From Hyphomicrobiales bacterium (GTDB lineage: Bacteria; Pseudomonadota; Alphaproteobacteria; Rhizobiales; Aestuariivirgaceae), in contig JAEUMJ010000062.1 of NCBI GenBank assembly GCA_016792865.1, positions 1 to 56,025 of the forward strand: a stretch of DNA of 56,025 nucleotides, read 5' to 3'. Numbering within the stretch: position 1 is the stretch's first letter; every line of letters begins with the position of its first letter. The translations under genes were made by a program, and so were the position numbers. The notes under the pieces were generated by a model that was given only the letters and a program-made list of their open reading frames with translations, was not told the DNA's origin and ran no database searches. Of the stretch, positions 11,025 through 49,478 are shown piece after piece.

Positions 11025-11126
11025 GACCGGCTTTTGCCATGGCGGCGCCGTGGTTCCAAGTGCTTGAAGCCGCTGGAATTGATCTGTCCCGGTGAGTTGT
11101 GACAGTCTGGCGGAAAGGAGAGCTTC

Positions 11127-12155
11127 ATGCGCATCGTTTTTTCCGAGGACCACCGCAAGCATTTCGCCCAGGGCGAGGTCTATGGCGGCGAGCTGGTGAC
11201 GCCCTTCGAGCGACCCTCGCGCATGGAATACATCCTGCGGGAACTGAAGCGCCGCAAGATGACCGACATCGTGCCGCCCGCAAGACTCGACATGAAGGCG
11301 GTGAAGCGCGTGCATGATGCGGGCTTCCTCGATTTCCTCCGCACCGCCTGGGATGAGTGGCAGAAGGCCGGATATCGCGGCGAGATCCTGCCCACCGCCA
11401 TTCCCAACCGCTCCCTGCAACAGCGCATTCCCCGCTGGATCGACGGCAAGGTGGGCTATTACATCCATTCCGTTGAGACGGCGATCACCGCCGGAACCTG
11501 GGAGGCCGCCTGTGCCTCTGCGGCGGTGGCGCTCACGGCGCAGCGGCTCGTGGCAGGTGGCGCAGGTGCCGCCTTCGCGCTCTGCCGCCCGCCCGGCCAT
11601 CATGCCCATGACGATCTCTATGGCGGCTACTGCTTCCTCAACAATGCGGCCATCGCGGCGCAGGCCTTCCGCGATCAGGGCGCGGCGCGTGTCGCCATCC
11701 TCGACGTGGACTTCCATCACGGCAACGGCACGCAGGACATTTTCTACGACCGTGCCGATGTGCTGTTCTGTTCGCTGCACGGCAACCCGGAGGATTGCTA
11801 TCCGCACTTCCTCGGCTACAAGGACGAGACCGGAAAGGGAAAGGGCGAAGGCTTCAACGTCAACTATCCCATGGGGCCGGGAACGGGCTTCGACACCTGG
11901 GGTTCCGCCCTCCGCAAGGCCCTCGCCCGGATCAAGGCCTACAAGCCCGATGCACTTGTGGTGTCGCTCGGTGTCGATGCCTTCAAGGATGATCCGATCA
12001 GCTTCTTCAAGCTGACGAGCGCGGATTTCACCCGCGCCGGCGAGGCCATTGCCAGGCTCCGTCTGCCGACACTTTTCGTGATGGAAGGGGGCTATGCCAT
12101 CGAGGCCATCGGCGTGAACACGGTCAATGTGCTGGAAGGCTTCGAGAATGCGTGA
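11127..12155 (+). CDS. Histone-deacetylase-fold acetylpolyamine amidohydrolase
   Basis: The 342-residue enzyme has the class II deacetylase core: the charge-relay pair in RPPGHHAHDD (His158, His159), GGYCFLNNAAIAA, Zn ligands in LDVDFHHGNGTQD (Asp195, His197), an Asp in LGVDAFKDDP and the transition-state Tyr in MEGGY. The N-terminal motif MRIVFSEDHRKHF with a long loop is characteristic of bacterial acetylpolyamine amidohydrolases, which remove acetyl groups from acetylputrescine, acetylcadaverine and acetylated spermidine. GGAAAGGAGAG precedes the ATG. It overlaps the downstream amine dehydrogenase by eight bases, indicating coupled expression, so the deacetylated product may be handed to that enzyme. 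Confidence 0.88.
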   Translation: MRIVFSEDHRKHFAQGEVYGGELVTPFERPSRMEYILRELKRRKMTDIVPPARLDMKAVKRVHDAGFLDFLRTAWDEWQKAGYRGEILPTAIPNRSLQQRIPRWIDGKVGYYIHSVETAITAGTWEAACASAAVALTAQRLVAGGAGAAFALCRPPGHHAHDDLYGGYCFLNNAAIAAQAFRDQGAARVAILDVDFHHGNGTQDIFYDRADVLFCSLHGNPEDCYPHFLGYKDETGKGKGEGFNVNYPMGPGTGFDTWGSALRKALARIKAYKPDALVVSLGVDAFKDDPISFFKLTSADFTRAGEAIARLRLPTLFVMEGGYAIEAIGVNTVNVLEGFENA

Positions 12156-14217
12156 CCCGCGCTATGACATCCTGTTCGAGCCGGTGAGGCTGGGGCCGCT
12201 CACCGCGAAGAACCGCTTCTACCAGGTGCCGCACTGCAATGGCGGCGGCTATCGCGATCCCTCGGCGGTTGCGGAAATGCGCCGGGTGAAATCGGAAGGC
12301 GGCTGGGGCGTGATCTTCACCGAACAGGTGGAAATCCATCACACCTCCGAAATCACGCCTTTCATCGAGTTGCGACTGTGGGAAGAGAAGGACATGCCTT
12401 CCTTCGTGAAGATGGCCGATGCCATTCACGAACATGGTGCGCTGGCGGGCGTCGAGCTTGCCTATCCGGGGGTGAACGGCCCCAATCTCTACAGCCGCGA
12501 AGTGCCCATGGCACCCATGAACATGCCGATCCTCACCTTCACCAGTGATCCGGTGCAGGCCCGCGCCATGGACAGGCAGGACATCCGCAACCTGCGGGAC
12601 TGGCACAGGCAATCGTTCCGCCGCGCCAAGCGGGCGGGCTTCGACATCCTTTGCCTCTATGGCGCCCACGGCTTCGGGGTAATCCAGCATTTCCTCTCGC
12701 CGCGCATCAATCAGCGCAACGATGAGTATGGCGGGTCGCTGAAGAACCGGGCGCGATTGCTGGCCGAGCTTGTCTCGGACGCCCGCGATGTGGCGGGTGA
12801 CACCTGCGCCATTGCGGTCCGGCTGTCGCTCGATGAAATGGCAGGCCCGGACGGCTTCACCAACGCGGAACTGCGCGAGCTTGTGGCCATGCATTCCGAA
12901 CTGCCGGACATCTGGGACTTTGCCCACGGTACATGGGAAGCCTGCTCCGGCACCTCGCGCTTCAAGGAGGAGGCGGCCCAGGAAGACCTGATCCGGGGAC
13001 TGAAGCAACTCACGCCAAGGCCCGTTGTGGGCGTGGGCCGCTTCACCAGCGCCGACCAGATGGTGCGGCAGGTGAAACAGGGGCTGCTCGATTTCATCGG
13101 CGCGGCGCGGCCCTCGATTGCCGATCCCTTCCTGCCGAAGAAGATCGATGCAGGCCGCAGCGAGGACATCCGGGAATGCATCGGCTGCAACATCTGCGTC
13201 ACCGGCGACATGACCATGGGCCTGTCGCGCTGCACGCAGAATTCCTCCTTCATGGAGGAATGGCGCAAGGGCTGGCACCCGGAACGCATGCGGAAGACCG
13301 CGCCGGAGAAGAAGGTGCTGGTTGTCGGTTCCGGCCCGGCCGGGCTTTCGGCGGCGCATCGCCTGGGGCTGCGCGGCTATGAGGTGGCGCTTGCGGAAGC
13401 GCGGCGCGAGGTGGGCGGCCGCGTGACCCTGGAATCCGCCTTGCCCGGCCTGTCCGCCTGGGCACGGGTACGTGACTACCGCATGGGCCAGATCGGCAAG
13501 ATGACGAACGTGGAAGTCTATCGTGAATCGCAGCTCTCGCCGGAAGATGTGCTGGCCTTCGGCGCGCAACATGTTTGCGTGGCCACTGGATCCTTGTGGC
13601 GGCGCGATGCCGTGGCCCGCTTCCACCTGAAGCCCGTGCCGATGGCGGAAGGCGTGCGCGTGCTGACACCCGATGACATCATGGCGGGGGTCACGATTGC
13701 GGGGCATGTCCTGATCTATGACGATGACCACTATTACATGGGCGGCGTCATGGCCGAGGCCCTGCTCAGGATGGGCTGCACGGTGACGCTTGCCACGCCA
13801 TCGGTGAAGGTGTCGGAATGGGCCACGAACACGCTGGAGCAGGGTTTCATCCAGAAGCGGTTGCTGGAAAGCGGCGTGGATATCCGGGTTTCTCGGGCGC
13901 TCATGTCGGCGGCGAGGGGTGAGGCCGTGATCGGCTGCACCTATACGGGCCGGGAGGAGCGTGTCGCCTGCGATGCGGTGATGATGGTCACGGCGCGGGT
14001 GCCCGTCGATGGCTTGCTGCATGACTTGCGGCACCTTGAGGCCGCCTGGGCCGACCACGGCATTGAAAGCGTGAAGGCGATCGGCGATGCGGAAGCCCCG
14101 TCATCCGCCATTGCATGGTCAACCTATGCCGGGCATCGTTATGCCGAGGAACTTGATGAGCCGGAGCGTGGCGATGAATTGCCCTTCCGGCGCGAGATTG
14201 CGGAGATACTGACATGA
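12148..14217 (+). CDS. Amine dehydrogenase of the trimethylamine/histamine dehydrogenase family
   Basis: The 689-residue protein has an FMN TIM barrel (1-340), a [4Fe-4S] motif C344-x2-C347-x2-C350-x11-C362 and a C-terminal nucleotide-binding region (VLVVGSGPAGLSAAHRLG, about 389-406). Cys30 in FYQVPHCNG occupies the position of the Cys that carries covalent 6-S-cysteinyl FMN in trimethylamine dehydrogenase. The methylamine-binding aromatics of that enzyme are not kept: residue 60 is Gln instead of Tyr and residue 354 is Asp at the site of Trp355. That pattern matches histamine dehydrogenase, as I recall it. Overlaps with both neighbours (8 and 4 bases) tie it to acetylpolyamine deacetylation and AguB. 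Electrons would go to an electron-transfer flavoprotein, not seen here. Confidence 0.85.
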   Translation: MRDPRYDILFEPVRLGPLTAKNRFYQVPHCNGGGYRDPSAVAEMRRVKSEGGWGVIFTEQVEIHHTSEITPFIELRLWEEKDMPSFVKMADAIHEHGALAGVELAYPGVNGPNLYSREVPMAPMNMPILTFTSDPVQARAMDRQDIRNLRDWHRQSFRRAKRAGFDILCLYGAHGFGVIQHFLSPRINQRNDEYGGSLKNRARLLAELVSDARDVAGDTCAIAVRLSLDEMAGPDGFTNAELRELVAMHSELPDIWDFAHGTWEACSGTSRFKEEAAQEDLIRGLKQLTPRPVVGVGRFTSADQMVRQVKQGLLDFIGAARPSIADPFLPKKIDAGRSEDIRECIGCNICVTGDMTMGLSRCTQNSSFMEEWRKGWHPERMRKTAPEKKVLVVGSGPAGLSAAHRLGLRGYEVALAEARREVGGRVTLESALPGLSAWARVRDYRMGQIGKMTNVEVYRESQLSPEDVLAFGAQHVCVATGSLWRRDAVARFHLKPVPMAEGVRVLTPDDIMAGVTIAGHVLIYDDDHYYMGGVMAEALLRMGCTVTLATPSVKVSEWATNTLEQGFIQKRLLESGVDIRVSRALMSAARGEAVIGCTYTGREERVACDAVMMVTARVPVDGLLHDLRHLEAAWADHGIESVKAIGDAEAPSSAIAWSTYAGHRYAEELDEPERGDELPFRREIAEILT

Positions 14218-15104
14218 GAAACGTCACCGTCGCCATCACCCAGATGGCGTCCCGCCAGGATTGGGCGAAGAACTGCGATGCGGCAGAGGCACTGGTGCGT
14301 GAGGCAGCGAAAGGTGGGGCCGGGCTCATCCTGCTTCAGGAGCTTTTTGATGGCGACTATTTCTGCATCGAGCAACATGCGCGGTTTCTCGCCGGTGCCG
14401 AGGAGCTGTCCCGCCACCGCACGGTCAAGCGCTTTGCCGCGCTGGCGAAGGAGCTTGGCGTCGTGCTTCCGGTCAGCGTCTTCGAGCGCGCCAACACCGC
14501 ACACTACAACACCACGGTCATTGTCGATGCCGATGGCCGCGAGCTTGGGTTCTATCGCAAGACCCATATTCCGGATGGCCGCGGTTATCAGGAGAAGTTC
14601 TATTTCTCTCCGGGCGATACCGGCTTCAAGGTGTGGGAGACGGCGGCGGGCAGGATCGGCCTTGCCATCTGCTGGGACCAGTGGTTCCCGGAAACCGCCC
14701 GCGCCATGGCCTTGATGGGGGCGGAAATCCTGCTCTATCCGACGGCGATCGGCTCCGAGCCGCCGAACCCCGGCTATGATTCCTCCAGCCACTGGCAGAA
14801 CGTGATGCGCGGCCACGCCGCCGCCAACATCATGCCGCTCATGGCGTCCAACCGCGTCGGCAGGGAAGTGGCGCCCGATGGCCGACACGACATCTTCTAT
14901 GGCCGCTCCTTCATCGCCGACCACCAGGGCGAGAAGGTGCAGGAGATGGACCGCAGCGAAGAAGGCGTGCGCCTGCACAGCTTCGACCTCGATGCGGTGC
15001 AGGAGTTGCGCCGGAGCTGGGGCCTGTTCCGGGATCGCAGGCCGGAGATGTATGGCGCGCTGATGACCCTGGACGGTCGCACCCGCAGTGCGGCGGCAAG
15101 CTGA
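14214..15104 (+). CDS. aguB: N-carbamoylputrescine amidase
   Basis: The 296-residue nitrilase-superfamily enzyme has the full triad: Glu43 (LQELFDGDYF), Lys116 (FYRKTHIPDG) and Cys153 (AICWDQWFPE). The flanking sequence HIPDGRGYQEKFYFSPGD and the substrate-site segment GSEPPNPGYDSSSHWQ are those of plant and bacterial N-carbamoylputrescine amidases, which give putrescine, CO2 and ammonia. Its ATG overlaps the stop of the amine dehydrogenase by four bases. Agmatine deiminase (AguA), which normally supplies the substrate, is not in the window, so either it lies elsewhere or carbamoylputrescine comes from another source. The gene ends three bases before the opposing amidase gene. Confidence 0.9.
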   Translation: MRNVTVAITQMASRQDWAKNCDAAEALVREAAKGGAGLILLQELFDGDYFCIEQHARFLAGAEELSRHRTVKRFAALAKELGVVLPVSVFERANTAHYNTTVIVDADGRELGFYRKTHIPDGRGYQEKFYFSPGDTGFKVWETAAGRIGLAICWDQWFPETARAMALMGAEILLYPTAIGSEPPNPGYDSSSHWQNVMRGHAAANIMPLMASNRVGREVAPDGRHDIFYGRSFIADHQGEKVQEMDRSEEGVRLHSFDLDAVQELRRSWGLFRDRRPEMYGALMTLDGRTRSAAAS

Positions 15105-15107
15105 GGC

Positions 15108-16547
15108 TCAAAGCCTGGGGCGCTTCTTCCTGTCGCCGTACCAGCCGCCCACGGCCTTTTCGTAGGCAAGGCCGATGGCGAAGACGCGGGCGTCATCCCA
15201 GGTGCGGCCCACGATCTGGATGCCGGTCGGCACGCCGCTCTTGGCGAAGCCGGAGGGCAGCGACAGCACCGGGCAATTGTGCAGCATGTTGAACTGATGC
15301 GTCATCACCCAGCCGTATTCCGGATCGGCCGTCCTGCCGTTCACGGTGAAGGTCGTGTCCCAGGGGTCATGATCGGCCTTCACGCCCGGCACGTTGTTGG
15401 TGGGGCAGATCAGCGCGTCGAATGTCGCCAGCACCGGCCCCAGCGACTGGTACATGCTGTGGGCCCGCTCCCACGGCTTGTGGACATCATCGAGGGTGGA
15501 ATTGCGGTTCACCGCTTCGGCCATCCTGATGGAATAGTCGCTCATCAGGTGGGCATGGGTCCTGGCATGCCAAGCCGTCTGCCTGCCGAAGTGCATCATG
15601 TTGTACCAATGCAGGCAGTCGCTGTCGGTCTCCGGGGTCCAGCCCAGATCGACCTCCTCCACCACCGCGCCGAGGTCGCGCAGGTGATCGACGGCCAGCA
15701 GCGTGTTGCGGCGCACGTCCGCGTCGAGGTTCACGTAGCCGAAATCGAGGGAGAACGCGATCTTCATGCCCTTGATTGCCCCCGCCTTGCCGGGCAGCTT
15801 CACCCTGGCGCGGATGGAATCATGATCGAGCGGGTGCGGGCCGGCAGTGACCGACTGCATCAGGGCAGCGTCGGCAAGGCTGCGCGTCATGGGGCCGCAA
15901 TGGTTGAAGCGGTCGAAGCTGGCCGGAGGCCCATCGGGGTTGCGGCCATGGGGCGGCTTGAAGCCGACCACGCCGCAACAGCCGGCGGGAATGCGGATCG
16001 AGCCTCCGATGTCGGTTCCGGTGGCCAGCGTGGTGAGGCCCGCCGCAAGCGCAGCCCCCGATCCCCCCGAAGACCCGCCCGGCCCCCATTCGGGTGCCCA
16101 GGGGTTCCGGGTAATGCCCCAGGCGCGGGAATGGGTGCTGCCCGTCAGGCAGAATTCCGGCGTGGTGGTGCGGGCAAAAATGATGGCGCCGGCCTTTTCC
16201 AGCCTCTCGATCATCGGGTCGGAGTGCTCGTCCGGCGGCGCGTCCATGAAGATCAGCGAGCCGTGGGTGGTGCGCTTGCCCTTGACGCGCTGCGCATCCT
16301 TCACGGCGAGGGGGACTCCTTCCAGGGCCCTCACCCGGCCACCTCTCCTGGCATAGGCCGCATCGGCGGCCAGCGACTTTTCCATCGCCTCGTCCCAATA
16401 CTGGTCGGCAAGGCAGTTGATGACGGGATTGACCCTGGCCGCCCTTCGCTTCAGGGCAGAGAGCAGGGTGGACGGCTTCAGGCTCCGCTTGCGGAAAAGG
16501 GCGATGGCCTCGCTGGCTGAAAGGTAGCAGAGATCGTCATCGGTCAT
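15108..16547 (-). CDS. Amidase, signature family
   Basis: The 479-residue enzyme has the Ser-cisSer-Lys machinery of the amidase signature family: Lys in GVPLAVKDAQRVKG, the Gly/Ser-rich GPGGSSGGSGAALAAG and the nucleophile region TGTDIGGSIRIPAG. It resembles GatA in layout, but the gatB and gatC partners are absent and the neighbours are catabolic, so a small-amide hydrolase is more likely than glutamyl-tRNA amidotransferase. It is transcribed against aguB and divergently from the DHRS6-like dehydrogenase, with only 64 bases between the latter two starts. The substrate is unknown. Confidence 0.87.
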   Translation of the reverse strand: MTDDDLCYLSASEAIALFRKRSLKPSTLLSALKRRAARVNPVINCLADQYWDEAMEKSLAADAAYARRGGRVRALEGVPLAVKDAQRVKGKRTTHGSLIFMDAPPDEHSDPMIERLEKAGAIIFARTTTPEFCLTGSTHSRAWGITRNPWAPEWGPGGSSGGSGAALAAGLTTLATGTDIGGSIRIPAGCCGVVGFKPPHGRNPDGPPASFDRFNHCGPMTRSLADAALMQSVTAGPHPLDHDSIRARVKLPGKAGAIKGMKIAFSLDFGYVNLDADVRRNTLLAVDHLRDLGAVVEEVDLGWTPETDSDCLHWYNMMHFGRQTAWHARTHAHLMSDYSIRMAEAVNRNSTLDDVHKPWERAHSMYQSLGPVLATFDALICPTNNVPGVKADHDPWDTTFTVNGRTADPEYGWVMTHQFNMLHNCPVLSLPSGFAKSGVPTGIQIVGRTWDDARVFAIGLAYEKAVGGWYGDRKKRPRL

Positions 16548-16611
16548 GGTGAGTGGACAGGCTTCGCTTTTATTGGCTAGAGAACATCAACACTTCAAGG
16601 GAACAAAGTCC

Positions 16612-17355
16612 ATGGGCGGAAGACTCGCAGGAAAAACGGCATTGGTCACCTCGGCGGCGCAGGGCATTGGCCGCGCCACGGTGCTGGCCATGGTGGCGGA
16701 AGGGGCCACGGTGATGGCGACCGACATCAATGTCGCCGCCCTTGAGGCGCTGGGGCGGGACTCTTCCTCGATCTCCATCCACCGGCTCGATGTGACACGG
16801 CAGGACGAGGTCGATGCCCTCGCCGCCAAGGTCGATGCGCCCGATGTGCTGTTCAATTGCTCCGGCTACGTCCATGCCGGAACCATCATGGATGTGGTGG
16901 ACAAGGATTGGGACTTCGCCTTCGAGCTGAATGTGCGCGCCCATTACCGCATGATGCGGGCCTTCACGCCGCGCTGGCTGGAACGGGGCAAGGCTTCGGT
17001 CATCAACATGGCGTCGCTCGCCTCCTCGGTGAAGGGCGTTCCCAACCGCTTCCTCTACGGCACCAGCAAGGCGGCGGTGATCGGCATGACCAAGGCCATG
17101 GCGGCGGACTACCTCGCCAAGGGCATCCGCGTGAATGCCATCTGCCCCGGCACGGTGGATACCCCGTCCCTCCACGACCGCATGCGGGCGACGGGGGATT
17201 ACGAGGCCGCCCACAAGGCCTTTGTTGCCCGCCAGCCCATGGGACGCCTTGGCCGTGCTGAAGAAATCGCCGCTCTGGTGGTTTATCTGGCAAGCGATGA
17301 GAGTGCTTTCATCACCGGGCAGGCGATCAACATCGACGGCGGCTGGTCTGTCTAG
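16612..17355 (+). CDS. Short-chain dehydrogenase/reductase, DHRS6/BDH2-like
   Basis: The 247-residue SDR has a cofactor loop TSAAQGIG (13-20), Asp38 at the end of beta 2 indicating NAD(H), and the catalytic Ser135, Tyr149 and Lys153 (YGTSK). The run [14 protein letters not shown] and the C terminus [19 protein letters not shown] closely match type-2 (R)-3-hydroxybutyrate dehydrogenase, also described as a 4-oxoproline reductase. ATG 16612 is preferred over the frame opening at 16546, because the SDR fold starts directly and CAAGGGAAC lies upstream. Its link to the surrounding amine genes is inferred from position only. Confidence 0.87.
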
Positions 17356-17373
17356 GCCCGGCAACTGATCCCA

Positions 17374-17403
17374 TTGGCAAGGCTGATGTTTTCAGCCTAG
17401 TAT
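17374..17403 (+). promoter_or_regulatory. Candidate potA promoter with a dyad filling the spacer
   Basis: TTGGCA (17374-17379) and TAGTAT (17398-17403) are separated by 18 bases, and the inverted repeat AGGCTGA-TGTTT-TCAGCCT (17380-17398) occupies that spacer almost exactly. The elements lie 48 bases before the potA start. The layout suggests a regulator that binds between the -35 and -10 boxes. Confidence 0.45.
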
Positions 17404-17450
17404 CCGGCATCACAGGTGTCCGCGAGAGATACCGAGGGGAGAGTCTTATC

Positions 17451-18548
17451 TTGGCTTCAGCAGCAAGCGCGATCGATGCGCGTGGCGTCAGCAAGGTTTT
17501 CAAGGGTGCAGGACAGGACGAGGTCCGGGCGCTCGACAATGTATCTGTCGCAATTCGCGAGAACGAGTTCTTCACGCTGCTGGGGCCATCGGGGTGCGGC
17601 AAGACCACGCTTCTCCGCCTCATCGCGGGTTTCGACTTTCCGACCGAGGGTGAGATCCTGCTTCATGGCGAGAACATCGCCTTGCTTCCGCCCTACAAGC
17701 GTCCCGTGAACACGGTCTTCCAGAACTACGCGCTGTTTCCCCACATGACGGTGGGCCAGAACATCGCCTTCGGCCTTGAAATGCTGGGCAAGCCCAGGGA
17801 CGAGATCAACGCGCGCGTCACGGAAATGCTGAAGCTTGTCCGGATGGAGGACTTGCGCGACCGCCGCACCTCACAGATTTCCGGTGGCCAGCAGCAGCGC
17901 GTGGCCCTGGCCCGTGCGCTGGCACCCCGCCCGAAAGTGCTGTTGCTCGACGAGCCGCTCTCGGCGCTGGACTACAAGCTCCGCAAGGACATGCAGATCG
18001 AACTCAAGCGCCTGCAGCACGACACCGGCATCACCTTCATCTTCGTCACCCATGACCAGGAAGAAGCGCTCACCATGTCGGATCGCATCGCGGTGATGAG
18101 CAAGGGCAAGATCCTTCAGGTGGGTGCGCCGCACGACATCTACGTACGCCCTGCCGATCGTTTTGTCGCAAACTTCATCGGCGAGACGAATTTTCTCGTG
18201 GGCAGGATTGCCTCGGAGAAGGCCGGAAAGGCCAAGGTCGAACTCGCCGCCGGCGGAACGCTCTCGGCCGATGCGCCGGACCGGGGCGCGCCCAGAGGCA
18301 GCGAAGTGACGATTGTGGTGCGTCCCGAAAACGCCACGCTTGTTCCTTCGGGCAAGGGCGATATCGCGGGCGTGGTGGAGAACGTCGTCTATTTCGGCAC
18401 CGACACGCATGTTCACCTCAAGCTTGCGGATGGCTCACAGTTCATCGTGCGCCAGCAGAACGCCACGCTTGCGAGTGACGATTACAAGCCCGGCCAGAAG
18501 GCGGGCATTGCCGTGGCGCCGGGCACCCCCCGCATCCTCAAGGATTGA
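17451..18548 (+). CDS. potA: Polyamine ABC transporter ATP-binding protein
   Basis: The 365-residue ATPase shows Walker [10 protein letters not shown] (45-53), signature [15 protein letters not shown], Walker [13 protein letters not shown], the switch His in [11 protein letters not shown] and a C-terminal TOBE-type regulatory domain (about 285-362), as in PotA. The start is TTG 17451: no in-frame ATG exists before the Walker A motif, and GAGGGGAGAG lies about ten bases upstream. It is the first gene of potA-potB-potC-potD. The ATPase sits on the cytoplasmic face and drives uptake of putrescine or spermidine-type substrates. Confidence 0.9.
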
Positions 18549-18550
18549 CG

Positions 18551-19477
18551 ATGTCAGATGCAGCCCGCATTGCCGAAGAGGCCCGCCGCGCCGACATCCG
18601 GACCCGCTGGTGGCTGACGGCGCCCGCACTGTTCATCCTCTTCATCGCGGCGGTGGGCCCGCTCTTCGTGGTGCTGCTTTTCTCGCTCATGGTGAAGGGC
18701 GACTATGGCGACGTGAAGTACTGGCAGTTCTCCACCGATGGCTGGTTCAGCGTCTTCTTCGAACGCGACATCTTCGACGACACGGTCGGGCTGGCGCAGG
18801 CGCACATGGAAATCCTCTGGCGCTCGGTGAAGCTCTCGCTCATCACCACGCTGCTCACCCTGCTGGTCGGATTCCCCACCGCCTACTACATTTCGATCCA
18901 GCCGCCGAAGAAGCGTGATCTCCTCGTCTTCATGATCACGATCCCGTTCTGGACCAACATCCTGATCCGCACCTTCGCCATGCAGGAGGTGATCCGCAAC
19001 GAGGGCGTCATCAACACATTGCTGATCTGGGCCGGTTTCATCGAAAGGCCGATCCAGATCATGTATACCGACTGGGCCATCTTCTTCGGCATGGTCTATG
19101 TCTACCTGCCGCTCATGGTGCTGCCGCTCTATGCCAGCATGGAAAAGATCGATTTCCGCCTGGTGGAAGCGGGTTACGACCTTTATGCGGGACGCTTCCA
19201 GGTCTTGCGCCGCGTCATCATTCCGCTGGTCAAGCCCGGCATCGTCGCGGGGTCCATCCTGGTGTTCATTCCCTCCCTCGGTGCATATGTCACGCCGCGC
19301 GTTCTGGGGGGCGGCAAGAACCTCATGCTCGGCAACCTGATCGACCTCCAGTTCGGCCAGGGCAAGAACTGGCCCCTGGGTGCGGCGCTCTCCATCACGT
19401 TGCTTGTGATCGTGACCGTGGCGCTGCTCGTCTATGTCCGGAACGCCAGCAGGCAGGGAGGCGGGCATGGCCACTAA
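18551..19477 (+). CDS. potB: Polyamine ABC transporter permease
   Basis: The 308-residue membrane protein has a long N terminus, a first membrane helix at about 20-43 and five further helices, with the EAA coupling loop VEAGYDLYAGRFQVLRRVIIP that contacts the ATPase. ATG 18551 is chosen because AAGGA lies six bases upstream; a TTG two codons earlier is possible. The gene follows the potA stop by two bases and overlaps potC by 11 bases. Size and order fit the PotB/PotH subunit. Confidence 0.9.
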   Translation: MSDAARIAEEARRADIRTRWWLTAPALFILFIAAVGPLFVVLLFSLMVKGDYGDVKYWQFSTDGWFSVFFERDIFDDTVGLAQAHMEILWRSVKLSLITTLLTLLVGFPTAYYISIQPPKKRDLLVFMITIPFWTNILIRTFAMQEVIRNEGVINTLLIWAGFIERPIQIMYTDWAIFFGMVYVYLPLMVLPLYASMEKIDFRLVEAGYDLYAGRFQVLRRVIIPLVKPGIVAGSILVFIPSLGAYVTPRVLGGGKNLMLGNLIDLQFGQGKNWPLGAALSITLLVIVTVALLVYVRNASRQGGGHGH

Positions 19478-20276
19478 ACTCCGTACCTTCGACGTGAAGG
19501 CCCAGCCCGGCTTCGGCACCGTGGCGATGATCTGCTTCTTCATGCTTTACCTGCCGATCGCCATTCTTGTCATCTATGCCTTCAATGCGGGCGAGAACAT
19601 CGCGATCTGGGAAGGCCTTTCGCTGCGCTGGTTCGTTTCCGCCTGGCATAATGACACGGTGCAGGAAGCGGCCTTCCGTTCGCTTTTCCTGGCAACGGTC
19701 GCTTCCACCATCGCCACTGTGGTTGCGGCCATGGCGGCCATCGCCACAACGCGCACGCCGCCCTACCGCGGCCTCACCTTCAAGTATGCGATGATCAACC
19801 AGCCGCTGATGGTGCCTGAAATCGTCACGGCGGTGTCGCTCCTCATCGTCTTCTCGCGCTTCAAGGTGTGGACGGGTTACAACGGCCTCGGCTACATGGT
19901 GCTGGCGCACACGGCCTTCTGCATTCCCTTTGCCTACCTGCCGATCCGTGCGCGCCTCGAAAACATGGACCTGACGCTGGAACGGGCCGCTGCGGACCTC
20001 TACGCCACGCCCTGGCAGGCCTTCCGCCGTGTCACGCTGCCGTTGCTGGTGCCCGGCATCATCGCCGGCTTCATGCTCGCATTCGTGATCTCGCTCGACG
20101 ACGTGGTGATCACCGAATTCGTGAAGTCGGGCGGGCAGGAAACCCTGCCGACCTACATGCTGGGGCAGTTGCGCCGCACCGTGACGCCTGAAATCAACGC
20201 CATAGCGACCGTGTTCCTGGCGCTTTCCGTTCTGCTGGTGACACTGTTCTATCTCGTGAACCGAAAGAAAACCTGA
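19467..20276 (+). CDS. potC: Polyamine ABC transporter permease
   Basis: The 269-residue permease has six predicted membrane helices and an EAA loop, LERAAADLYATPWQAFRRVTLPLL. The motif ISLDDVVITEFVKSGGQETLP is the PotC/PotI signature. ATG 19467 lies behind a GGGAGGCGGG ribosome-binding stretch that is itself inside the end of potB. Together with potB it forms the channel of the transporter. Confidence 0.9.
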   Translation: MATKLRTFDVKAQPGFGTVAMICFFMLYLPIAILVIYAFNAGENIAIWEGLSLRWFVSAWHNDTVQEAAFRSLFLATVASTIATVVAAMAAIATTRTPPYRGLTFKYAMINQPLMVPEIVTAVSLLIVFSRFKVWTGYNGLGYMVLAHTAFCIPFAYLPIRARLENMDLTLERAAADLYATPWQAFRRVTLPLLVPGIIAGFMLAFVISLDDVVITEFVKSGGQETLPTYMLGQLRRTVTPEINAIATVFLALSVLLVTLFYLVNRKKT

Positions 20277-20303
20277 ACCCAAGATGTCCCCAAGGAGGAT
20301 CAC

Positions 20304-21338
20304 ATGAAAAGACTCTTGAAAGCGGCCATTGCCGGCGCCGCCCTGCTGATGAGCGCAGGTGCTGCACTTGCCGATGGCGAACTGAACATCTTCAACTGGG
20401 GTGATTACACCAGCCCGGAGATGATCAAGAAGTTCGAGGAGAAGTATAAGGTCAAGGTGACGATCACCGACTACGACTCCAACGACACGGCCCTGGCCAA
20501 GGTGCGTGCCGGCGGCCACGGCTTCGATGTCGTGGTGCCGTCTGCCAACTTCGTGCCGATCTGGATCAAGGAAGGCTTGCTGCTTGAGGCCCGCCCCGAC
20601 CAGATGGAGAACTTCAAGAACGTGGATGAGCGCTGGGTCAATGTCGACTGGGATCCGGGCCGCCGCTACACGGTTCCGTGGCAGTGGGGCCTGACCGGCA
20701 TCGGCGTGAACAAGACGGTCTATTCGGGCGATCCGAACACCTCCGCCATCTTCCTCGATCCGCCGCCGGAACTGCAGGGCAAGATCAACGTTGCGCCGGA
20801 AATGAACGACGTGATGTATGCCGCGATCCGCTATCTCGGCGGCAAGTGGTGCACCGACGACAAGGAACTGCTGAAGAAGGTGCATGACAAGCTGAAGGAA
20901 GCCAAGCCGAAGTGGCTCGCCATGGACTACAGCGCCTATGAAAAGATGGCGGCCCGCGAATACAGCGCCGTGTACTACTGGAACGGCGCCATGCTGCGCG
21001 CCCGGCTGAAGAATGCGGAAGTCACTTTCGGTTTCCCCAAGGAAGGCTATCCCTTCTTCATGGACAGCGTCGCCATCCTCAAGGATGCGAAGAACGTGGA
21101 GAACGCCAAGCTGTTCATGAACTTCATCATGGACCCGGAAAACGCCGCCATGATCTCGAACTTCGCCAAGTATGCCAATGGCATCAAGGGTTCGGACAAG
21201 TTCATGGACAAGGAACTGCAGGACGCGCCTGAAATCCACCCGACGGCCGAGCAGGTTGCGGCAGGTGAATTCATGCTGCCCTGCGCTCCGGAAGTGAATG
21301 ACATCTACACCAAGATCTGGACGGACGTGCTGAAGTAA
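20304..21338 (+). CDS. potD: Periplasmic polyamine-binding protein
   Basis: The 344-residue protein has a clear signal peptide (residues 1-23, MKRLLKAAIAGAALLMSAG, cleaved after ALA) and the mature start DGELNIFNWGDYTSPEMI, in which Trp and Tyr belong to the aromatic polyamine box of PotD/PotF. Further binding-site candidates are VVVPSANFV and YYWNGAMLRAR. AAGGAGGATCAC precedes the ATG. Which polyamine is bound cannot be read from these residues. The gene is the last of the pot operon and is followed by a strong terminator. Confidence 0.9.
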   Translation: MKRLLKAAIAGAALLMSAGAALADGELNIFNWGDYTSPEMIKKFEEKYKVKVTITDYDSNDTALAKVRAGGHGFDVVVPSANFVPIWIKEGLLLEARPDQMENFKNVDERWVNVDWDPGRRYTVPWQWGLTGIGVNKTVYSGDPNTSAIFLDPPPELQGKINVAPEMNDVMYAAIRYLGGKWCTDDKELLKKVHDKLKEAKPKWLAMDYSAYEKMAAREYSAVYYWNGAMLRARLKNAEVTFGFPKEGYPFFMDSVAILKDAKNVENAKLFMNFIMDPENAAMISNFAKYANGIKGSDKFMDKELQDAPEIHPTAEQVAAGEFMLPCAPEVNDIYTKIWTDVLK

Positions 21339-39206: not shown

Positions 39207-40163
39207 ATGCCCAACCACCATCCCGTTTCCGGACTCGTGACCCCCCGTTTTGGCGGCATTGCCACCTTTTTCCGCTTGCCCCATGTCGCGCCGGATGCGG
39301 CCAGGGGCATCGATATCGGCATCGTCGGCATTCCGTGGGATGGCGGCACCACCAACCGGCCCGGCCCCCGCCATGCGCCGCGCCAGATGCGCGACCAGTC
39401 CTCGATGGTCAGGCCGATGCACCAGACCACCCATGTCGTTCCCTACAAGCTCGCCAATATCGCGGACCTCGGTGACTGCTCGGTGAACCCGGCCAGTGTC
39501 GATGACACGCTGAAGCGCGTCGAGAACCATTTCTCCGCCCTGATCGCGCAAGGCATCCGTCCGCTCTCGGCAGGCGGGGATCATCTCTGCTCGCTTCCGG
39601 TGCTGCGCGCCGTGGCGAAGAAGAAGCCGGTGGGCATGATTCACTTCGACGCCCACACGGACCTGTACGACAGCTATTTCGGCGGCTTCAAATACACTCA
39701 CGGAACACCCTTCCGCCGCGCCATCGAGGAAGGACTGCTTGACCCGAAGCGCGTGATCCAGATCGGCCTGCGCGGCTCGATGTATGATCTTGATGATTTC
39801 GAATGGGGCCAGAAGATGGGCGTCCGCCTCATGCGCATCGAAGAGGCCATGGAACTCGGGCCCCGGAAGGTGATGGAAGAGGCGCGCCGCATTGCCGGTG
39901 AGGGCGAAACCTACGTGAGCTTCGACATCGACATGCTCGATCCGGTCTATGCGCCGGGCACGGGGACGCCTGAAATCGGCGGCTTCACGACCTTCCAGGC
40001 GCAGCAGATGTTGCGCGGATTGCGCGGTGTGAACATCGTCGGCGCGGATGTCGTGGAAGTCTCCCCGCCCTTCGATCCATCGGGCATCACGGCATATGCC
40101 GGTGCGGTGATGATGTTCGAGATCCTCTGCAACATGGCGGAGGCGGTGGCGAAGCGGGCGTGA
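39207..40163 (+). CDS. Guanidino-acid ureohydrolase (guanidinobutyrase/agmatinase family)
   Basis: The 318-residue manganese enzyme has the ureohydrolase motifs SAGGDHLCSLP, HFDAHTDLYD and SFDIDMLDPVYAPGTGTPE, which bind the binuclear Mn cluster. The N terminus TPRFGGIATFFRLPHV and the segment GTPFRRAIEEGLLDP resemble guanidinobutyrase (GbuA) and guanidinopropionase more than SpeB agmatinase. GAGAGGAGAATTCC precedes the start. With the AruI-like enzyme it would complete the arginine transaminase route: 4-guanidinobutyrate to GABA and urea. Agmatine remains an alternative substrate given the polyamine genes. Confidence 0.87.
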   Translation: MPNHHPVSGLVTPRFGGIATFFRLPHVAPDAARGIDIGIVGIPWDGGTTNRPGPRHAPRQMRDQSSMVRPMHQTTHVVPYKLANIADLGDCSVNPASVDDTLKRVENHFSALIAQGIRPLSAGGDHLCSLPVLRAVAKKKPVGMIHFDAHTDLYDSYFGGFKYTHGTPFRRAIEEGLLDPKRVIQIGLRGSMYDLDDFEWGQKMGVRLMRIEEAMELGPRKVMEEARRIAGEGETYVSFDIDMLDPVYAPGTGTPEIGGFTTFQAQQMLRGLRGVNIVGADVVEVSPPFDPSGITAYAGAVMMFEILCNMAEAVAKRA

Positions 40164-44452: not shown

Positions 44453-45097
44453 ATGTTCCACTTCATCAAGTCACTCATGCCCAGGGAAGAGAAGTTCTTC
44501 GATCTCTTCGAGGCCCAGGCCGCCAAGGCCGAGGAGGCGGCGCAATCGCTGCGCAAGGTTCTCGACGGCGGCAAGACCATCGCCGACAATTGTGCCCTGC
44601 TTTCGCGGCAGGAAGAGGAAGCCGATCACATCTCATACGAGGTGATGCAGGCCATCCGCCGCGCCTTCATCACCCCCTTCGACCGCAGCGACATCAAGGC
44701 ACTGTCCGCGAGCCTCGATGACGCCATCGACCAGATGAACAAGACCGCCAAGGTGGTGATGCTCTATGGCGTGAAGGAATTCGAACCCAACATGCGGGCC
44801 ATGGCCGACCGCGTCATCATGCTGGCCAAGCTCACCTCCGAGGCGCTGCCGCTCCTTCGCAATGTCGGGCAGAACTCCTCGAAGCTGCATACGCTGACGG
44901 GCGAGATCACCAAGATCGAGGAGCAGTCGGACCAGCTCAACGACGAGGGCCTTCGCGCCCTTTTTTTGGGCCGCGCCCGCAAGGATCCGCTCGCCTTCGT
45001 GATCGGTTCCGAACTCTACGACCATCTCGAAAAGGTCTGCGACCGCTTCGAGGATGTGGCTCATGTGATGAGCGACATCGTGATTGAACACGCCTGA
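44453..45097 (+). CDS. DUF47 family protein, PhoU-like accessory of phosphate transport
   Basis: The 214-residue all-helical protein belongs to the DUF47/PhoU-like family that pairs with Pit transporters: EEKFFDLFEAQAAKAEEAA, the middle FITPFDRSDIKALSASLDDAID and DHLEKVCDRFEDVAHVMSDIVIEHA near the C terminus. In Sinorhizobium meliloti the equivalent orfA precedes pit and the pair is repressed by PhoB under phosphate limitation. Here too it lies 14 bases before pit and behind a Pho box. Confidence 0.9.
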   Translation: MFHFIKSLMPREEKFFDLFEAQAAKAEEAAQSLRKVLDGGKTIADNCALLSRQEEEADHISYEVMQAIRRAFITPFDRSDIKALSASLDDAIDQMNKTAKVVMLYGVKEFEPNMRAMADRVIMLAKLTSEALPLLRNVGQNSSKLHTLTGEITKIEEQSDQLNDEGLRALFLGRARKDPLAFVIGSELYDHLEKVCDRFEDVAHVMSDIVIEHA

Positions 45098-45111
45098 GGG
45101 AGCGCACGCGC

Positions 45112-46113
45112 ATGGACATGGGCGCCTTCAACGCGACGCTGGTCTTCCTGATCTTCGTGGCGCTCTTCTTCGACTTCATCAACGGCATGCACGACAGTGC
45201 CAATGCCATCGCCACCGTCGTTTCGACCCGCGTGCTCAAGCCCTTCCATGCGGTGCTGTGGGCGGGCTTCTTCAACTTCGCCGCCTTCTTCGTCTTCGAG
45301 GCCCATGTGGCGGCAACCATCGGCAAGGGCATCGTCCAGCCAGACCTGATCGACAACGCCGTCGTCTGTGGTGCACTTGCCGGCGCCATCGCCTGGAACC
45401 TCATCACCTGGTGGGGCGGCATACCCTCATCATCGTCGCATGCCCTGGTGGGCGGCATCGTGGGGGCGGGCGTGGCGAAAGCGGGCTTCGACAGCATCGA
45501 GTGGAGCGGCCTTTCCAAGACCATCTACGCCATCGTGCTTTCGCCCTTCACCGGATTCGTGCTCGCCATCCTGCTCATGATCCTGATGAGCTGGCTTTTC
45601 GTGCGCGCCCATCCCTCTTGGGCCGACGGCGTGATGCGCAAGTTGCAGCTTGTGGCCTCGGCGCTTTATTCCCTCGGCCATGGCAGCAACGACGCACAGA
45701 AGACAGCGGGCATCATTGCCGTGCTGCTCTACTCGAATGGTGTGTACAAGGAATTCACCGTTCCTGATTGGGCCATCTTCTCGTGCTATGTCGTCATGGG
45801 GCTGGGGACGATGATGGGAGGATGGCGCATCGTGCACACGATGGGATCGAGAATCACCAAGCTGACGCCGATGCAGGGCGCCTGCGCGAACACGGCAGGT
45901 GCCGTGACCCTGTTTGCCGCGACCAATCTCGGCATTCCCGTCTCGACCACGCACACCATCACGGGCGCGATTGTCGGTGCGGGAACGGCGCGCCGTGCCA
46001 ACTCGGTGCGCTGGGGCATTGCCTCCAGCATCGTCTGGGCCTGGGTCGTCACCATTCCTTCGGCGGCCATCCTCTCCGCCCTCTCGTATTACGTGGCGGC
46101 GCTCTTCCTGTGA
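45112..46113 (+). CDS. pit: Low-affinity inorganic phosphate transporter, PiT family
   Basis: The 333-residue membrane protein has the two inverted PiT signatures: FDFINGMHDSANAIATVVSTRVL near the N terminus and LYSLGHGSNDAQKTAGIIA in the second half. Also visible are GGIPSSSSHALVGGIVG and its repeat GIPVSTTHTITGAIVG. About ten membrane helices are expected. It carries metal-phosphate with protons. It is co-transcribed with the DUF47 gene and ends in GTGA, where the NUDIX gene begins. Confidence 0.92.
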   Translation: MDMGAFNATLVFLIFVALFFDFINGMHDSANAIATVVSTRVLKPFHAVLWAGFFNFAAFFVFEAHVAATIGKGIVQPDLIDNAVVCGALAGAIAWNLITWWGGIPSSSSHALVGGIVGAGVAKAGFDSIEWSGLSKTIYAIVLSPFTGFVLAILLMILMSWLFVRAHPSWADGVMRKLQLVASALYSLGHGSNDAQKTAGIIAVLLYSNGVYKEFTVPDWAIFSCYVVMGLGTMMGGWRIVHTMGSRITKLTPMQGACANTAGAVTLFAATNLGIPVSTTHTITGAIVGAGTARRANSVRWGIASSIVWAWVVTIPSAAILSALSYYVAALFL

Positions 46114-46523
46114 GGGAACTGGCGCCATTGCAGCAAGTGGCGGCGCTGTGCTGGCGCAAGCGCAAGGGCGTGGTCGAGGTGTTGCTTGTCACCTCGCGGG
46201 AAACGCGCCGCTGGGTGATCCCCAAGGGCTGGCCCATGGAAGGGTTGGCCGATTACAACGCCGCCCGCCGGGAAGCATTCGAGGAGGCGGGTGTCGAAGG
46301 TCACATGCGGCGCGAACCCGTGGGGCAGTTCTTCTATGAAAAGCGCGGCAAGAAGGAAGTCCTGCCGGTCACCGTCACGGTCTATGCCCTCGAAGTCGTG
46401 AAGAAGCTCAAGTCGTGGCCGGAAGTGAAGGAGCGGGAACGGAGCTGGTTCTCGCCCCACGACGCCATGCTGCGTGTGGCCGAACCCGGCCTCAAGGAAA
46501 TCCTCCGCCGCTTCCGGGGCTAG
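46110..46523 (+). CDS. NUDIX hydrolase
   Basis: The 137-residue protein has a Nudix box, G-x14-REAFEEAGV, preceded by RRWVIPKGWPME, as in diphosphoinositol/diadenosine polyphosphate hydrolases. The first Glu of the canonical GX5E part is replaced by Leu, while the metal-binding REUXEEXGU part is intact. The start is GTG 46110 overlapping the pit stop, which gives VRELAPLQQVAALCWRK. Coupling to phosphate uptake suggests a role with polyphosphorylated nucleotides or inositol phosphates, but this is inference. Its end overlaps the opposing amine oxidase gene by four bases. Confidence 0.85.
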   Translation: MRELAPLQQVAALCWRKRKGVVEVLLVTSRETRRWVIPKGWPMEGLADYNAARREAFEEAGVEGHMRREPVGQFFYEKRGKKEVLPVTVTVYALEVVKKLKSWPEVKERERSWFSPHDAMLRVAEPGLKEILRRFRG

Positions 46524-48346
46524 CCGGCAGCGGCCCGGCCGGCGCTTTGCCTCACCGCCTGCCCGAACAGCACCATCATCGACTCCGGGAAGACCATCAG
46601 GAACTTGCGGAATTTCCCGTAGTCCAGTTCCAGCACCTCAACGTCGGTGCGGGCCTGCAGCGTGGCGGAACGGCGGGGCAGGAAGAGGCCGTATTCCCCG
46701 GCCACATCACCGCGCGTCTTTTGCGCCACCGGCTCCGGGAGGTTCGGCAGGATCACGTCCAGCACGCCCGACATGACGGCAAAGACGCAGCCCGCTTCAT
46801 CGCCCGCCCGGCAAAGAACCTCGCCGGATCTCAGGCTCCGGCGTGAATGGAGAGCGGCCAGCACCCGCAGGTCCTGGGCGGGAATGGCCTCGAACACCGG
46901 GCTTCGCTGCATCATCGCCAGGCGTGCGTCGATCTCGGCGGGATCGAGCGACTTGTGGGCGGCATTGAACAGGCGTTCCGCCCGTTTCAACTGCTCGCGC
47001 CACCGGCGCGTCTCGGTGAAACGCCGGTTGGGCAAGACCGAGGTGTCGCCGGTGAGGCGGGCAGCCTCGCGCAGGCCGGAGTGATAGCCCGACTGCATGG
47101 TGGCCCAGTGGATGCGCAGCGTATGCTCGCCCGCGAAGAACAGGCTGTTGCCGACAGGCTCCGCCATCACGTCGAGTTCCTCCGAGGTCACGCCCGGCGG
47201 AAGGTACATGTAGGCTCCGGCAGAGAAGGGATCGCCCTCCCACGACGTGATCTGTACACGGACGGGTTCTTCCGTGCCCGCGCCGAAGACATTGCGCAGG
47301 GCTTCCATGGCAACGACGCGGGCCGCGGCACTGCCTTGGCTCTCGACGGCGCGCCCGGCTGCACCGCCATAAAGCATCACCAGAATGGGCCGCCGGTGAC
47401 TCTTCCACATGTTGATGATCGCCGTCGGGCCGAAAGGGCTGGTTTGGGGAATGCTGGCGAAGACATACTGGTTCTGCGGCCAGAAGGGCCGTTCAAAGTG
47501 CAGGATGAGTTTCGTCAGCGAACCGACGCCGAGCTTCCTGATGGCATCCTGCTTCCGGGCCGGAAGGGGAGGCTCGAATGTGATCGTCCCCGACTTCAGG
47601 ACGCCCAGCGGCACCGTCACGATGGCCGCATCGGCAGTGAAGGTTTCATCGCCCGCCGTTACGGTCACGCCGTCGGGTCCGTGGGCAATGCGTGAGACAG
47701 GCAGGGAGTAGCGAAGGTCCAGACCCTCCACGAGTTTGGCAATCAGGCTGCCGCTGCCGCCTGCAATCAGGCTGTCACCGGGACCGTAGACCTCATATCC
47801 CTCATCCCAATGCAGGAACGACATTTCCGCTGCGCCCGCACCGGCATCGTCCCGCGCCACCAGTTCCTGATGCCAGTCCACGTCGTGGGCAAGAGCCGGA
47901 TCGATGGGCATGCCCTTCGTCACATGGGCGGCGGCATCGGCCAGCGACATGTCGGCCCCGCCATCGAGAAGAAACGAGCGGCGCAGAGTGTCCATCGCAT
48001 CATGCACCTCATCCATGAGCGTGATGCTGGCTTCCTTGCGTTCCGGTGAAAGCCCGATGCCGTTCTGGTGCAGGGCAAGGTCTTCCCAGCCTCCGGTGTA
48101 ACTGCTGTCGCCCCCCACGAAGATCGTCGGCACACCAAGCTCGCGGCAGATCGATGTCATGGGATTGCCGTCGGTGCCGTGAATCCAGTGTGCACCGAGA
48201 TCGATGCCGTCCTCCGTCCAGACGCGACCTCCGGCCCGCTCGCGGGCTTCAAGCACGATGACCTTTATTCCCGCTGCACCAAGCGCACGCGCGGCGGCCA
48301 GTCCCGCCAGGCCGGCCCCAATCACAAGCACGCTCCTGCTGCGCAT
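46520..48346 (-). CDS. Flavin amine oxidase fused to a cyclic-nucleotide-binding domain
   Basis: The 608-residue protein starts with VLVIGAGLAGLAAARALGAA and EARERAGGRVWT, the FAD site of monoamine/polyamine oxidases, keeps the conserved Lys (SLTKLILHF) and ends that domain with FFAGEHT and GYHSGLREAARL. After a linker (about 440-485), residues about 490-600 form a CRP-like beta-roll with the phosphate cassette GEYGLFLPRRSAT, including the Arg-Ser-Ala that binds the cyclic phosphate. The combination implies an amine oxidase whose activity may respond to cAMP or cGMP. ATG 48346 is preferred over 48394, because it places the FAD motif at the N terminus. Substrate unknown; polyamines fit the window. 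Confidence 0.87.
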   Translation of the reverse strand: MRSRSVLVIGAGLAGLAAARALGAAGIKVIVLEARERAGGRVWTEDGIDLGAHWIHGTDGNPMTSICRELGVPTIFVGGDSSYTGGWEDLALHQNGIGLSPERKEASITLMDEVHDAMDTLRRSFLLDGGADMSLADAAAHVTKGMPIDPALAHDVDWHQELVARDDAGAGAAEMSFLHWDEGYEVYGPGDSLIAGGSGSLIAKLVEGLDLRYSLPVSRIAHGPDGVTVTAGDETFTADAAIVTVPLGVLKSGTITFEPPLPARKQDAIRKLGVGSLTKLILHFERPFWPQNQYVFASIPQTSPFGPTAIINMWKSHRRPILVMLYGGAAGRAVESQGSAAARVVAMEALRNVFGAGTEEPVRVQITSWEGDPFSAGAYMYLPPGVTSEELDVMAEPVGNSLFFAGEHTLRIHWATMQSGYHSGLREAARLTGDTSVLPNRRFTETRRWREQLKRAERLFNAAHKSLDPAEIDARLAMMQRSPVFEAIPAQDLRVLAALHSRRSLRSGEVLCRAGDEAGCVFAVMSGVLDVILPNLPEPVAQKTRGDVAGEYGLFLPRRSATLQARTDVEVLELDYGKFRKFLMVFPESMMVLFGQAVRQSAGRAAAG

Positions 48347-48479
48347 GATGTCGTGTTCCCCAGAGCCCCGTGCCGAAGACGCTAGCCCGTGCAACCTGGG
48401 ATGAAAAGCCTTGGCGTGCGTATCCTCCCGGCTGTGGCGCTTGACGGAGCATGCGATTGCCGGTCAAGAGCAGCGGGAG

Positions 48480-49229
48480 ATGGCTTCCCTTCTTCCTGAT
48501 GTATCGCTGCACCTCTTCCTGCTGCTTGCCCTGACCGCCTTCGTGGCGGGAATGGCCCGCGGCTTTTCGGGATTTGGTGCGGCCCTGATCTTCGTTCCGT
48601 TTGCATCGCGCCTGCTGGGGCCGCAGGCGGCAGCGCCGCTTCTGCTGCTCACCGACGGTTTCGTGGCCCTGCCGCTGATCTGGTCGGCCTGGGAGAAGGC
48701 GCGGAAAAGCGAAGTGGGCCTGATGGCCGTGGGAGGGCTGATCGGCATCCCGCTCGGCACATACGCGCTCTCGGCGGGCGATCCCTCGCTGTTGCGCTGG
48801 ATCATCAGCATCATCGTCGCCCTGATGCTGCTGCTGCTGGTGTCAGGCTGGCGCTATGCGGGAAAGCCGCACGGCGGCGTGACGGTGGGCGTGGGGGCGA
48901 TGTCGGGGGTGTTCGGCGGCCTTGCGCAACTCTCCGGGCCGCCGGTCGTCGCCTATTGGCTGGGCGGCAATCACGATCACCGCGAAATGCGGGCCTCGAC
49001 CATTCTCTACTTTGCCTTTTCGACGCTGATTGCCTTCTTCAGCTATCTCATCGGCAAGCTGCTGACGCTGACGATCTTCAAGCTCGCCGTACTTCTGGCG
49101 CCCTTCTTTGCCGGGGGGCTTTTCCTGGGAAGCAGGATTTTCCACCTCGCCTCGCCCGAGACGTTCCGCAAGATCTGCCTCGGGCTGATTGCGCTGTCGC
49201 TTGGCCTGAGCCTGCCGGTCTGGGGCTAG
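48480..49229 (+). CDS. TauE/SafE family transporter
   Basis: The 249-residue membrane protein has about eight helices and the family's two glycine-rich half-repeats: FVAGMARGFSGFGAALIFVP and GAMSGVFGGLAQLSGPPVVAYWLGG. Members export sulfite, sulfoacetate or other organic anions. ATG 48480 follows AGCGGGAG; the earlier in-frame ATG at 48411 adds a polar stretch unlike the family. It is divergent from the amine oxidase gene over 133 bases. The substrate cannot be predicted. Confidence 0.85.
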   Translation: MASLLPDVSLHLFLLLALTAFVAGMARGFSGFGAALIFVPFASRLLGPQAAAPLLLLTDGFVALPLIWSAWEKARKSEVGLMAVGGLIGIPLGTYALSAGDPSLLRWIISIIVALMLLLLVSGWRYAGKPHGGVTVGVGAMSGVFGGLAQLSGPPVVAYWLGGNHDHREMRASTILYFAFSTLIAFFSYLIGKLLTLTIFKLAVLLAPFFAGGLFLGSRIFHLASPETFRKICLGLIALSLGLSLPVWG

Positions 49230-49241
49230 GCCCAATGGCAA

Positions 49242-49263
49242 ACAGGGCGTCGAGGCGCCCTGT
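49242..49263. terminator. Hairpin between convergent genes
   Basis: ACAGGGCG pairs perfectly with CGCCCTGT around a 6-base loop in the 63-base gap between the TauE-like gene and the small minus-strand gene. Only a short T-run (TTT) follows on the minus strand. Confidence 0.5.
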
Positions 49264-49292
49264 CATTCACCGCTTGCGATGGCGGGGCCGGA

Positions 49293-49478
49293 TCACTCCA
49301 GCCACTGCCACTGCTTGGGGTCGTTCAGGTCGTTCTCATCGACCAGATGGCGATCAAACACATCGCTGTCGCGGCACAGCAGCCACTGATGCACCTTCCC
49401 GGACCTGCCGTGGTTATGCACGCTGTAGGTGTGGCCCTGGTTGGGTTCGGCCATTTTGCGATATTTCTTGTGCAACAT
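49293..49478 (-). CDS. Small hydrophilic protein of unknown function
   Basis: A 61-residue protein rich in His, Trp, Asp and Asn, without membrane segments: it begins MLHKKYRKMAEPNQGHTY, has HNHGRSGKVHQWLLC in the middle and ends DLNDPKQWQWLE. GGAGAAAAAAAG directly precedes the ATG, and the upstream region carries two inverted repeats that could be its operators. I do not recognise a family. The good ribosome-binding site and regular composition make it a probable gene. Confidence 0.6.
   Translation of the reverse strand: MLHKKYRKMAEPNQGHTYSVHNHGRSGKVHQWLLCRDSDVFDRHLVDENDLNDPKQWQWLE

Follow-up and report, generated by a model that had tools for sequence, protein, structure and literature searches.

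A flavin amine oxidase joined to a C-terminal cyclic-nucleotide-binding domain in two Aestuariivirga genomes

The fused gene and its second copy

The stretch of DNA analyzed here (the window) comprises 56,025 nucleotides of a Hyphomicrobiales bacterium of the family Aestuariivirgaceae (contig JAEUMJ010000062.1) and carries on its minus strand (46520..48346) a gene whose product of 608 amino acids joins a flavin amine oxidase to a C-terminal cyclic-nucleotide-binding domain (CNBD). The open reading frame (ORF) runs from an ATG at 48346 to a stop at 46520-46522 with no internal stops; an in-frame TTG lies upstream of the ATG, and a start there would lengthen the protein by 16 residues. Two Pfam domains were found above their curated cut-offs, Amino_oxidase (PF01593; E 2.4e-71, residues 13-431) and cNMP_binding (PF00027; E 2.7e-14, residues 503-584), and no NCBIfam model exceeded its cut-off among the best 25 of 139 matches. 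A first-pass annotation of this DNA had already placed both functions in one chain, and we confirm its coordinates, strand, and frame together with the motifs it quoted (a flavin adenine dinucleotide [FAD] motif, the lysine of SLTKLILHF, FAGEHT, and the Gly-Glu and Arg-Ser-Ala of a phosphate-binding cassette), all of which are present.

All segments of the gene lie on the minus strand. The amine-oxidase domain (residues 1-431; 47054..48346) holds the FAD-binding GxGxxG at residues 10-15, E33, and GGR at residues 39-41. It is followed by a helical linker (residues 432-500; 46847..47053), delimited from the secondary structure (DSSP) of a full-length model and from identity by segment, and by the CNBD (residues 501-602; 46541..46846), consisting of a beta-roll with B and C helices. 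Within the CNBD lies the phosphate-binding cassette GEYGLFLPRRSATLQA (residues 550-565; 46652..46699), which has 16 residues rather than the usual 17. Third-position GC content is 0.76 in the oxidase, 0.88 in the linker, and 0.83 in the CNBD, high in all three segments as expected for coding sequence; the values for metK, nusA, potA, and infB in the window are 0.79 to 0.83. The gene is present in a single copy in the window genome (G000), where three further matches to the query were short and local, at ~26 bits.

A second fused protein was found in a metagenome-assembled genome of the genus Aestuariivirga (G010), in which the window is also placed; this genome matches both domains, with residues 224-605 at 49% identity on one contig and residues 5-210 at 55% on another, the copy running off the ends of both. 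Its frame is unbroken from the oxidase via the linker into the CNBD, with ~50% identity across the joint; by segment, identity is 51% in the oxidase (residues 224-431), 41% in the linker (residues 432-495), and 52% in the CNBD. The contig with the N-terminal part carries a hypothetical gene and that with the C-terminal part an isopentenyl-diphosphate isomerase gene. Since these two flanking genes adjoin in a related genome (G025), we treat the two contigs as parts of one gene.

Oxidase chemistry, the shortened cassette, and possible gating

The oxidase part scored 241.8 bits against the PF01593 cut-off of 19.8, covering profile positions 1-442 of 443, and it retains GAGLAG near the N terminus, GGR, K279 in SLTKLILHF, and FAGEHT. 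K279 (codon at 47510..47512, minus strand), which we take to be the flavin-site lysine of the amine-oxidase superfamily, aligns with a lysine of LSD2; of the 31 rows with a letter in this column of an oxidase alignment (A3), 28 have lysine, both fused proteins among them. In the same alignment, where most relatives have a T-[VA]-H-G-A stretch, the fused pair shows M-Q-S-G or M-Q-G-A. Among solved structures, those of LSD1 and LSD2 come closest, followed by polyamine oxidases. By these sequence features the oxidase part is a complete flavin amine oxidase of the LSD1/polyamine-oxidase type, predicted to bind FAD and to oxidize amines. The alignment with these enzymes of the PF01593 family is confined to residues 2-434 of the fused protein and leaves its linker and CNBD unmatched. 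SWIRM and tower domains mark the LSD1 histone demethylases. SWIRM was not found among the Pfam matches of the fused protein, and its 421 aligned residues correspond to LSD1 277-828, a stretch ~130 residues longer in LSD1, which therefore leaves no space for a tower insert.

The CNBD contains the cassette motif GEYGLFLPRRSAT and keeps the cassette residues G550, E551, R559, S560, and A561, for which the G010 protein has G, E, R, T, and A. Its closest sequences in the PDB are E. coli CRP, with which it shares the Gly-Glu and Arg-Ser-Ala, and the CNBD of a Mesorhizobium loti channel; the NCBIfam model of CRP matched it weakly, at 34.7 bits against a cut-off of 266. Modeled alone, the domain reached a predicted local distance difference test score (pLDDT) of 85.7 and adopted a CNBD fold with a cassette helix starting at E551 and a long C-terminal C helix, and the best structural matches of this model were the CNBDs of channels, CRP, GlxR, and PKG. 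The chain stops with the C helix or no more than six residues from it. Unlike the CRP/FNR regulators, the protein has no DNA-binding domain, and none of its 19 Pfam matches is a helix-turn-helix domain.

The case for nucleotide binding is tempered by features of the cassette and of the structure models. The Glu-to-Arg spacing is 8 in both fused proteins versus 9 or 10 in 11 aligned CNBDs (alignment A4, the 11 of 23 other CNBDs with the best scores against the fused domain, 10 from G000 and G010 and 1 from G330), and the cassette, at 16 residues in both, is shorter than in all 11 and, when aligned with CRP, two residues shorter than that of CRP. A 17-letter cassette, one residue longer than the fused cassette, appears in 29 of 30 family consensuses published in PMC2246266. 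Set against a canonical cassette of 17 residues with Arg at Glu+9, both fused proteins fall outside, with Arg at +8. In the full-length model, pLDDT is below 50 at residues 548-558, the start of the cassette, and the CNBD as a whole is of low confidence (44 to 81 by block), so contacts between the domains cannot be read from that model. The first-pass annotation had called the domain binding-competent and had proposed a structure prediction with inspection of the pocket; the retained residues, the fold, and the cassette helix of the domain model are in keeping with this, but with a spacing of 8 and low full-length confidence at the cassette the label goes further than the data. On sequence grounds we regard binding competence as plausible.

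Our preferred interpretation, which we hold with about as much confidence as doubt, is that the protein is a soluble two-domain amine oxidase gated by its CNBD, with cyclic AMP (cAMP) as the likeliest ligand; here we infer the ligand, its binding, the direction of regulation, and the amine substrate. The oxidase would oxidize an amine C-N bond and pass electrons from FAD to O2, and the imine product would hydrolyze to an aldehyde and an amine, with H2O2 as the further product. In the CRP-type domain, the beta-roll cassette (Glu551, Arg559, Ser560) and the C helix would together enclose a small cyclic nucleotide, in all likelihood cAMP if any. Movement of the C helix and of the linker helices, predicted at residues 445-466, 469-480, and 490-499 by DSSP of the full-length model, might then alter access to the oxidase active site or its shape (with residues 445-499 as the moving linker), such that amine oxidation would follow the level of the second messenger. 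We favor cAMP because the organism encodes a class III cyclase of the adenylyl type. G000 contains a single match to PF00211, which lies in a CHASE2 protein, and PF00027 is matched 12 times, the fused protein included. The CHASE2 cyclase contains KYIGD and FDYSVLGETVN, with the Lys/Asp pair characteristic of adenylyl cyclases, and cAMP is therefore likely made in this organism. A further candidate nucleotide-binding protein lies elsewhere in the window (4480-5127, minus strand), a bacterial Popeye-like protein of 215 amino acids matching POPDC1-3 (PF04831; E 6.6e-10) and cNMP_binding (E 2.5e-8); a second POPDC1-3 match in G000 (L055) is below the cut-off.

It is also possible, though we consider it unlikely, that the CNBD fold has been kept for a ligand other than a standard cyclic nucleotide, such as a nucleoside, another nucleotide, or a metabolite, which would regulate the oxidase via the short cassette. 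The 16-residue cassette of both fused proteins, set beside the 17 letters of nearly all family consensuses, is consistent with such a shift, and CNBDs that bind heme or chlorophenols (PMC2246266) and nucleosides as CNB ligands (PMC10959531) have been reported. Against it, both fused proteins retain the cassette Gly, Glu, Arg, and Ser/Thr, and the CNBD is nearest in sequence to E. coli CRP. To a structural or dimerizing CNBD, binding nothing and exerting no control over catalysis, we assign a similarly low likelihood. Tyr or His replaces the cassette Arg in 4 of the 11 other aligned CNBDs, so the fold can persist without a canonical cassette; the long C helix could pair two subunits, and the full-length model gives the cassette low confidence. 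The conservation of the cassette residues in both fused proteins despite ~50% overall identity argues in the other direction. Should the CNBD bind nothing, the finding would be a rare domain fusion. Finally, it is very improbable that the join is an artefact of a frame error, misassembly, or contamination: the window assembly is in 214 contigs and in G010 two contigs share the copy, but the same continuous joint recurs in a second species, genes found on one and the other of those G010 contigs adjoin in G025 (in support of one gene), and the flanking PiT and TauE genes occur in 18 and 16 of 37 genus genomes, respectively. The joint in G010 and the synteny of its contigs with G025 led us to reject a sequencing or assembly error, which disfavors the concern, raised at first pass, that the oxidase and the second domain might be separate proteins.

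Distribution, genomic sites, and origin

The fusion looks rare in the genomes searched. Among 69 genomes of the family, G010 was the sole other genome to match both domains, and unfused matches went no further than query residue 448. The window itself aside, no listed match extended beyond query residue 455 in draws from the order (297 genomes, E 1e-30), the class (385 genomes, E 1e-50), the phylum (398 genomes, E 1e-50), or the class of G942 (369 genomes, E 1e-40), draws that overlap and in which scoring took in only three or four candidates from each genome. With a profile of the joined region, 24 of 37 genus genomes showed some match, with a full-region match only in G000 and G010 and oxidase-only or CNBD-only matches in the remainder, and a search for the C-terminal domain (E 1e-3) across 49 loci turned up oxidase ORFs with a CNBD in these two genomes only. 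A contig scan for wider spread returned none; its repeat, with only two short peptide patterns, gave the G010 contig alone, a weak negative that barely covers other phyla and takes in no general protein database. The spread of the domain pair, which had been put forward as a check, thus extends, in the genomes searched, to one further genome, and no other listed match reaches the CNBD from the family to the phylum draws. Another genome, G330, encodes both functions as unfused neighbors: an amine oxidase (~35% identical) has a YgjV-type protein with a CNBD (PF10688 and PF00027) next downstream on its strand, no more than ~50 bases away (L034 745-1428 and 1474-2892, both minus).

In a maximum-likelihood tree of 31 oxidase rows, the fused pair grouped together (support 100/98) beside a group of the 23 nearest unfused oxidases, a group whose own fork is drawn open (88/93). 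The alignment and tree used 29 of 43 unfused oxidase ORFs, with the fragment L015 left out of the tree, and the G010 row fills half of the tree-alignment columns. A phage origin was rejected, as the viral scan gave five loci, all matching the oxidase part only and ending at query residues 208-211 of 385. In none of 72 plasmid records at E 1e-20 did any one place cover 80% of the query.

In the window, the fused gene converges with a NUDIX-type gene (46113..46523, plus strand, start approximate; from the ORF end and junction letters, named by sequence), the stops of the two sharing the palindrome CTAG. On its other flank it diverges from a TauE/SafE-like gene (48480..49229, plus strand; an ORF 76% identical to its G030 match, family named by sequence). 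Two relatives, G030 (PiT 89%) and G028, have PiT, NUDIX, and TauE in one row with nothing between NUDIX and TauE, and blastn of window 45001-49400 skipped the fused gene in both. The G010 site is a different one, where a BchZ fragment (below cut-off), PufL, PufM, and PufC (over cut-off), a PucC-like transporter (named by sequence), and a hypothetical protein precede the fused gene on its own strand, and the fused gene faces the isomerase. In G025 the hypothetical gene and isomerase are directly adjacent and this site is empty. The stretches fetched from G034 and G012 contain the puf genes and the hypothetical gene without a match to the isomerase or the fused gene; because the isomerase match is absent, they do not decide the matter. 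In G010 a 208-bp inverted repeat of 90% identity brackets the fused gene (L099 600-1060 and L100 1100-1700); the repeat holds palindromes rich in GC and also the 3′ end of the isomerase gene, copied in inverted orientation. For the window copy, no repeats were found in the two flank regions searched, and those across the gene were short and chance-like.

The fused gene seems to have been added recently and on its own. It occupies two different sites, and the relatives that allow comparison (two and one, respectively) lack it there, which argues for separate gains or movement, with loss in relatives as the alternative. Both carriers encode PufL/M, as do 13 of 37 genus genomes, and PufL occurs in 15 of 69 family genomes; phototrophy is therefore patchy in the family. 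An association of the fusion with phototrophy was not significant across the 37 genus genomes (one-sided Fisher p 0.12). The G010 puf genes are on L099 (C92), and those of G000 lie on another contig (L113, C198), not beside the fused gene; only the gene position in G010 is suggestive of a link. We can only speculate, and think it improbable, that the gene is a mobile single-gene, second-messenger-gated, H2O2-making amine oxidase whose cassette is shortened and shifted in its ligand, and that phototrophic Aestuariivirga acquired it independently at two sites, in one case right behind the photosynthesis genes, where it would tie amine turnover or redox signaling to growth in light.

Related enzymes and polyamine context

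Mycobacterial Pat, an acetyltransferase with an N-terminal CNBD, is under cAMP control and shares with the present proposal the logic of a CNBD-gated enzyme; its NCBIfam model matched the fused protein weakly (E 1.6e-4, residues 484-584 to positions 3-106, 20.6 bits against a cut-off of 460). Flavoenzymes are also reported to be joined to CRP-type CNBDs in single bacterial chains, as in ATII-TrxR, a thioredoxin reductase with an N-terminal CNBD (PMC6544261), and in Bact_Pyrredox, whose pyridine nucleotide-disulfide oxidoreductase is N-terminal, as is the oxidase here, and whose CNBs are in tandem (Kannan et al. 2007, PMC2246266). These enzymes differ from the fused oxidase in FAD family and chemistry, and the cassette of Bact_Pyrredox has 17 residues, its R standing at +9 (GEMGLISGRRRGATVRA). 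Enzyme-CNBD fusions are thus known, and the amine-oxidase partner appears to be new; with that partner and the short cassette, the protein represents a new form of enzyme-CNBD chain. In the open PMC literature, the listed titles and abstract beginnings held no report of an amine oxidase-CNBD pair or of such regulation, and terms for polyamines, amine oxidase, and photosynthesis were absent from the main text of PMC8555084. If the CNBD gates the oxidase, the literature searched would hold no earlier case of an amine oxidase controlled directly by a cyclic nucleotide, and the catabolism of polyamines or other amines, with its H2O2 output, would be tied to cAMP without transcription. The protein also offers a case for whether a cassette one residue shorter still binds and what it binds, a question made directly testable by one chain with two domain types that are usually soluble. 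Another possible enzyme-CNBD fusion is a 557-amino-acid ORF in G010 (L054 1399-3069, minus strand; C520), with an N-terminal part that is glutaminase-like by sequence and a terminal CNBD.

The first-pass suggestion of a link to polyamine oxidation is supported by the oxidase family and its closest structures and only weakly by the surrounding genes. We rejected membership of the fused gene in the polyamine operons of the window, since it lies apart from them and G030 and G028 have no gene at its site; the shared window is therefore weak support for a polyamine substrate. The window itself encodes genes for polyamine uptake and catabolism (9690-21338 and 39207-40163), including a PotA-type ABC system, together with a histone-deacetylase-fold hydrolase and a flavoprotein of the Old Yellow Enzyme type. 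Three of its genes exceed NCBIfam cut-offs, those for N-carbamoylputrescine amidase (AguB; 14214-15104), a PotA-type ATPase (17451-18548), and agmatinase (39207-40163), and a PotD/F-like binding protein is present below the cut-off.
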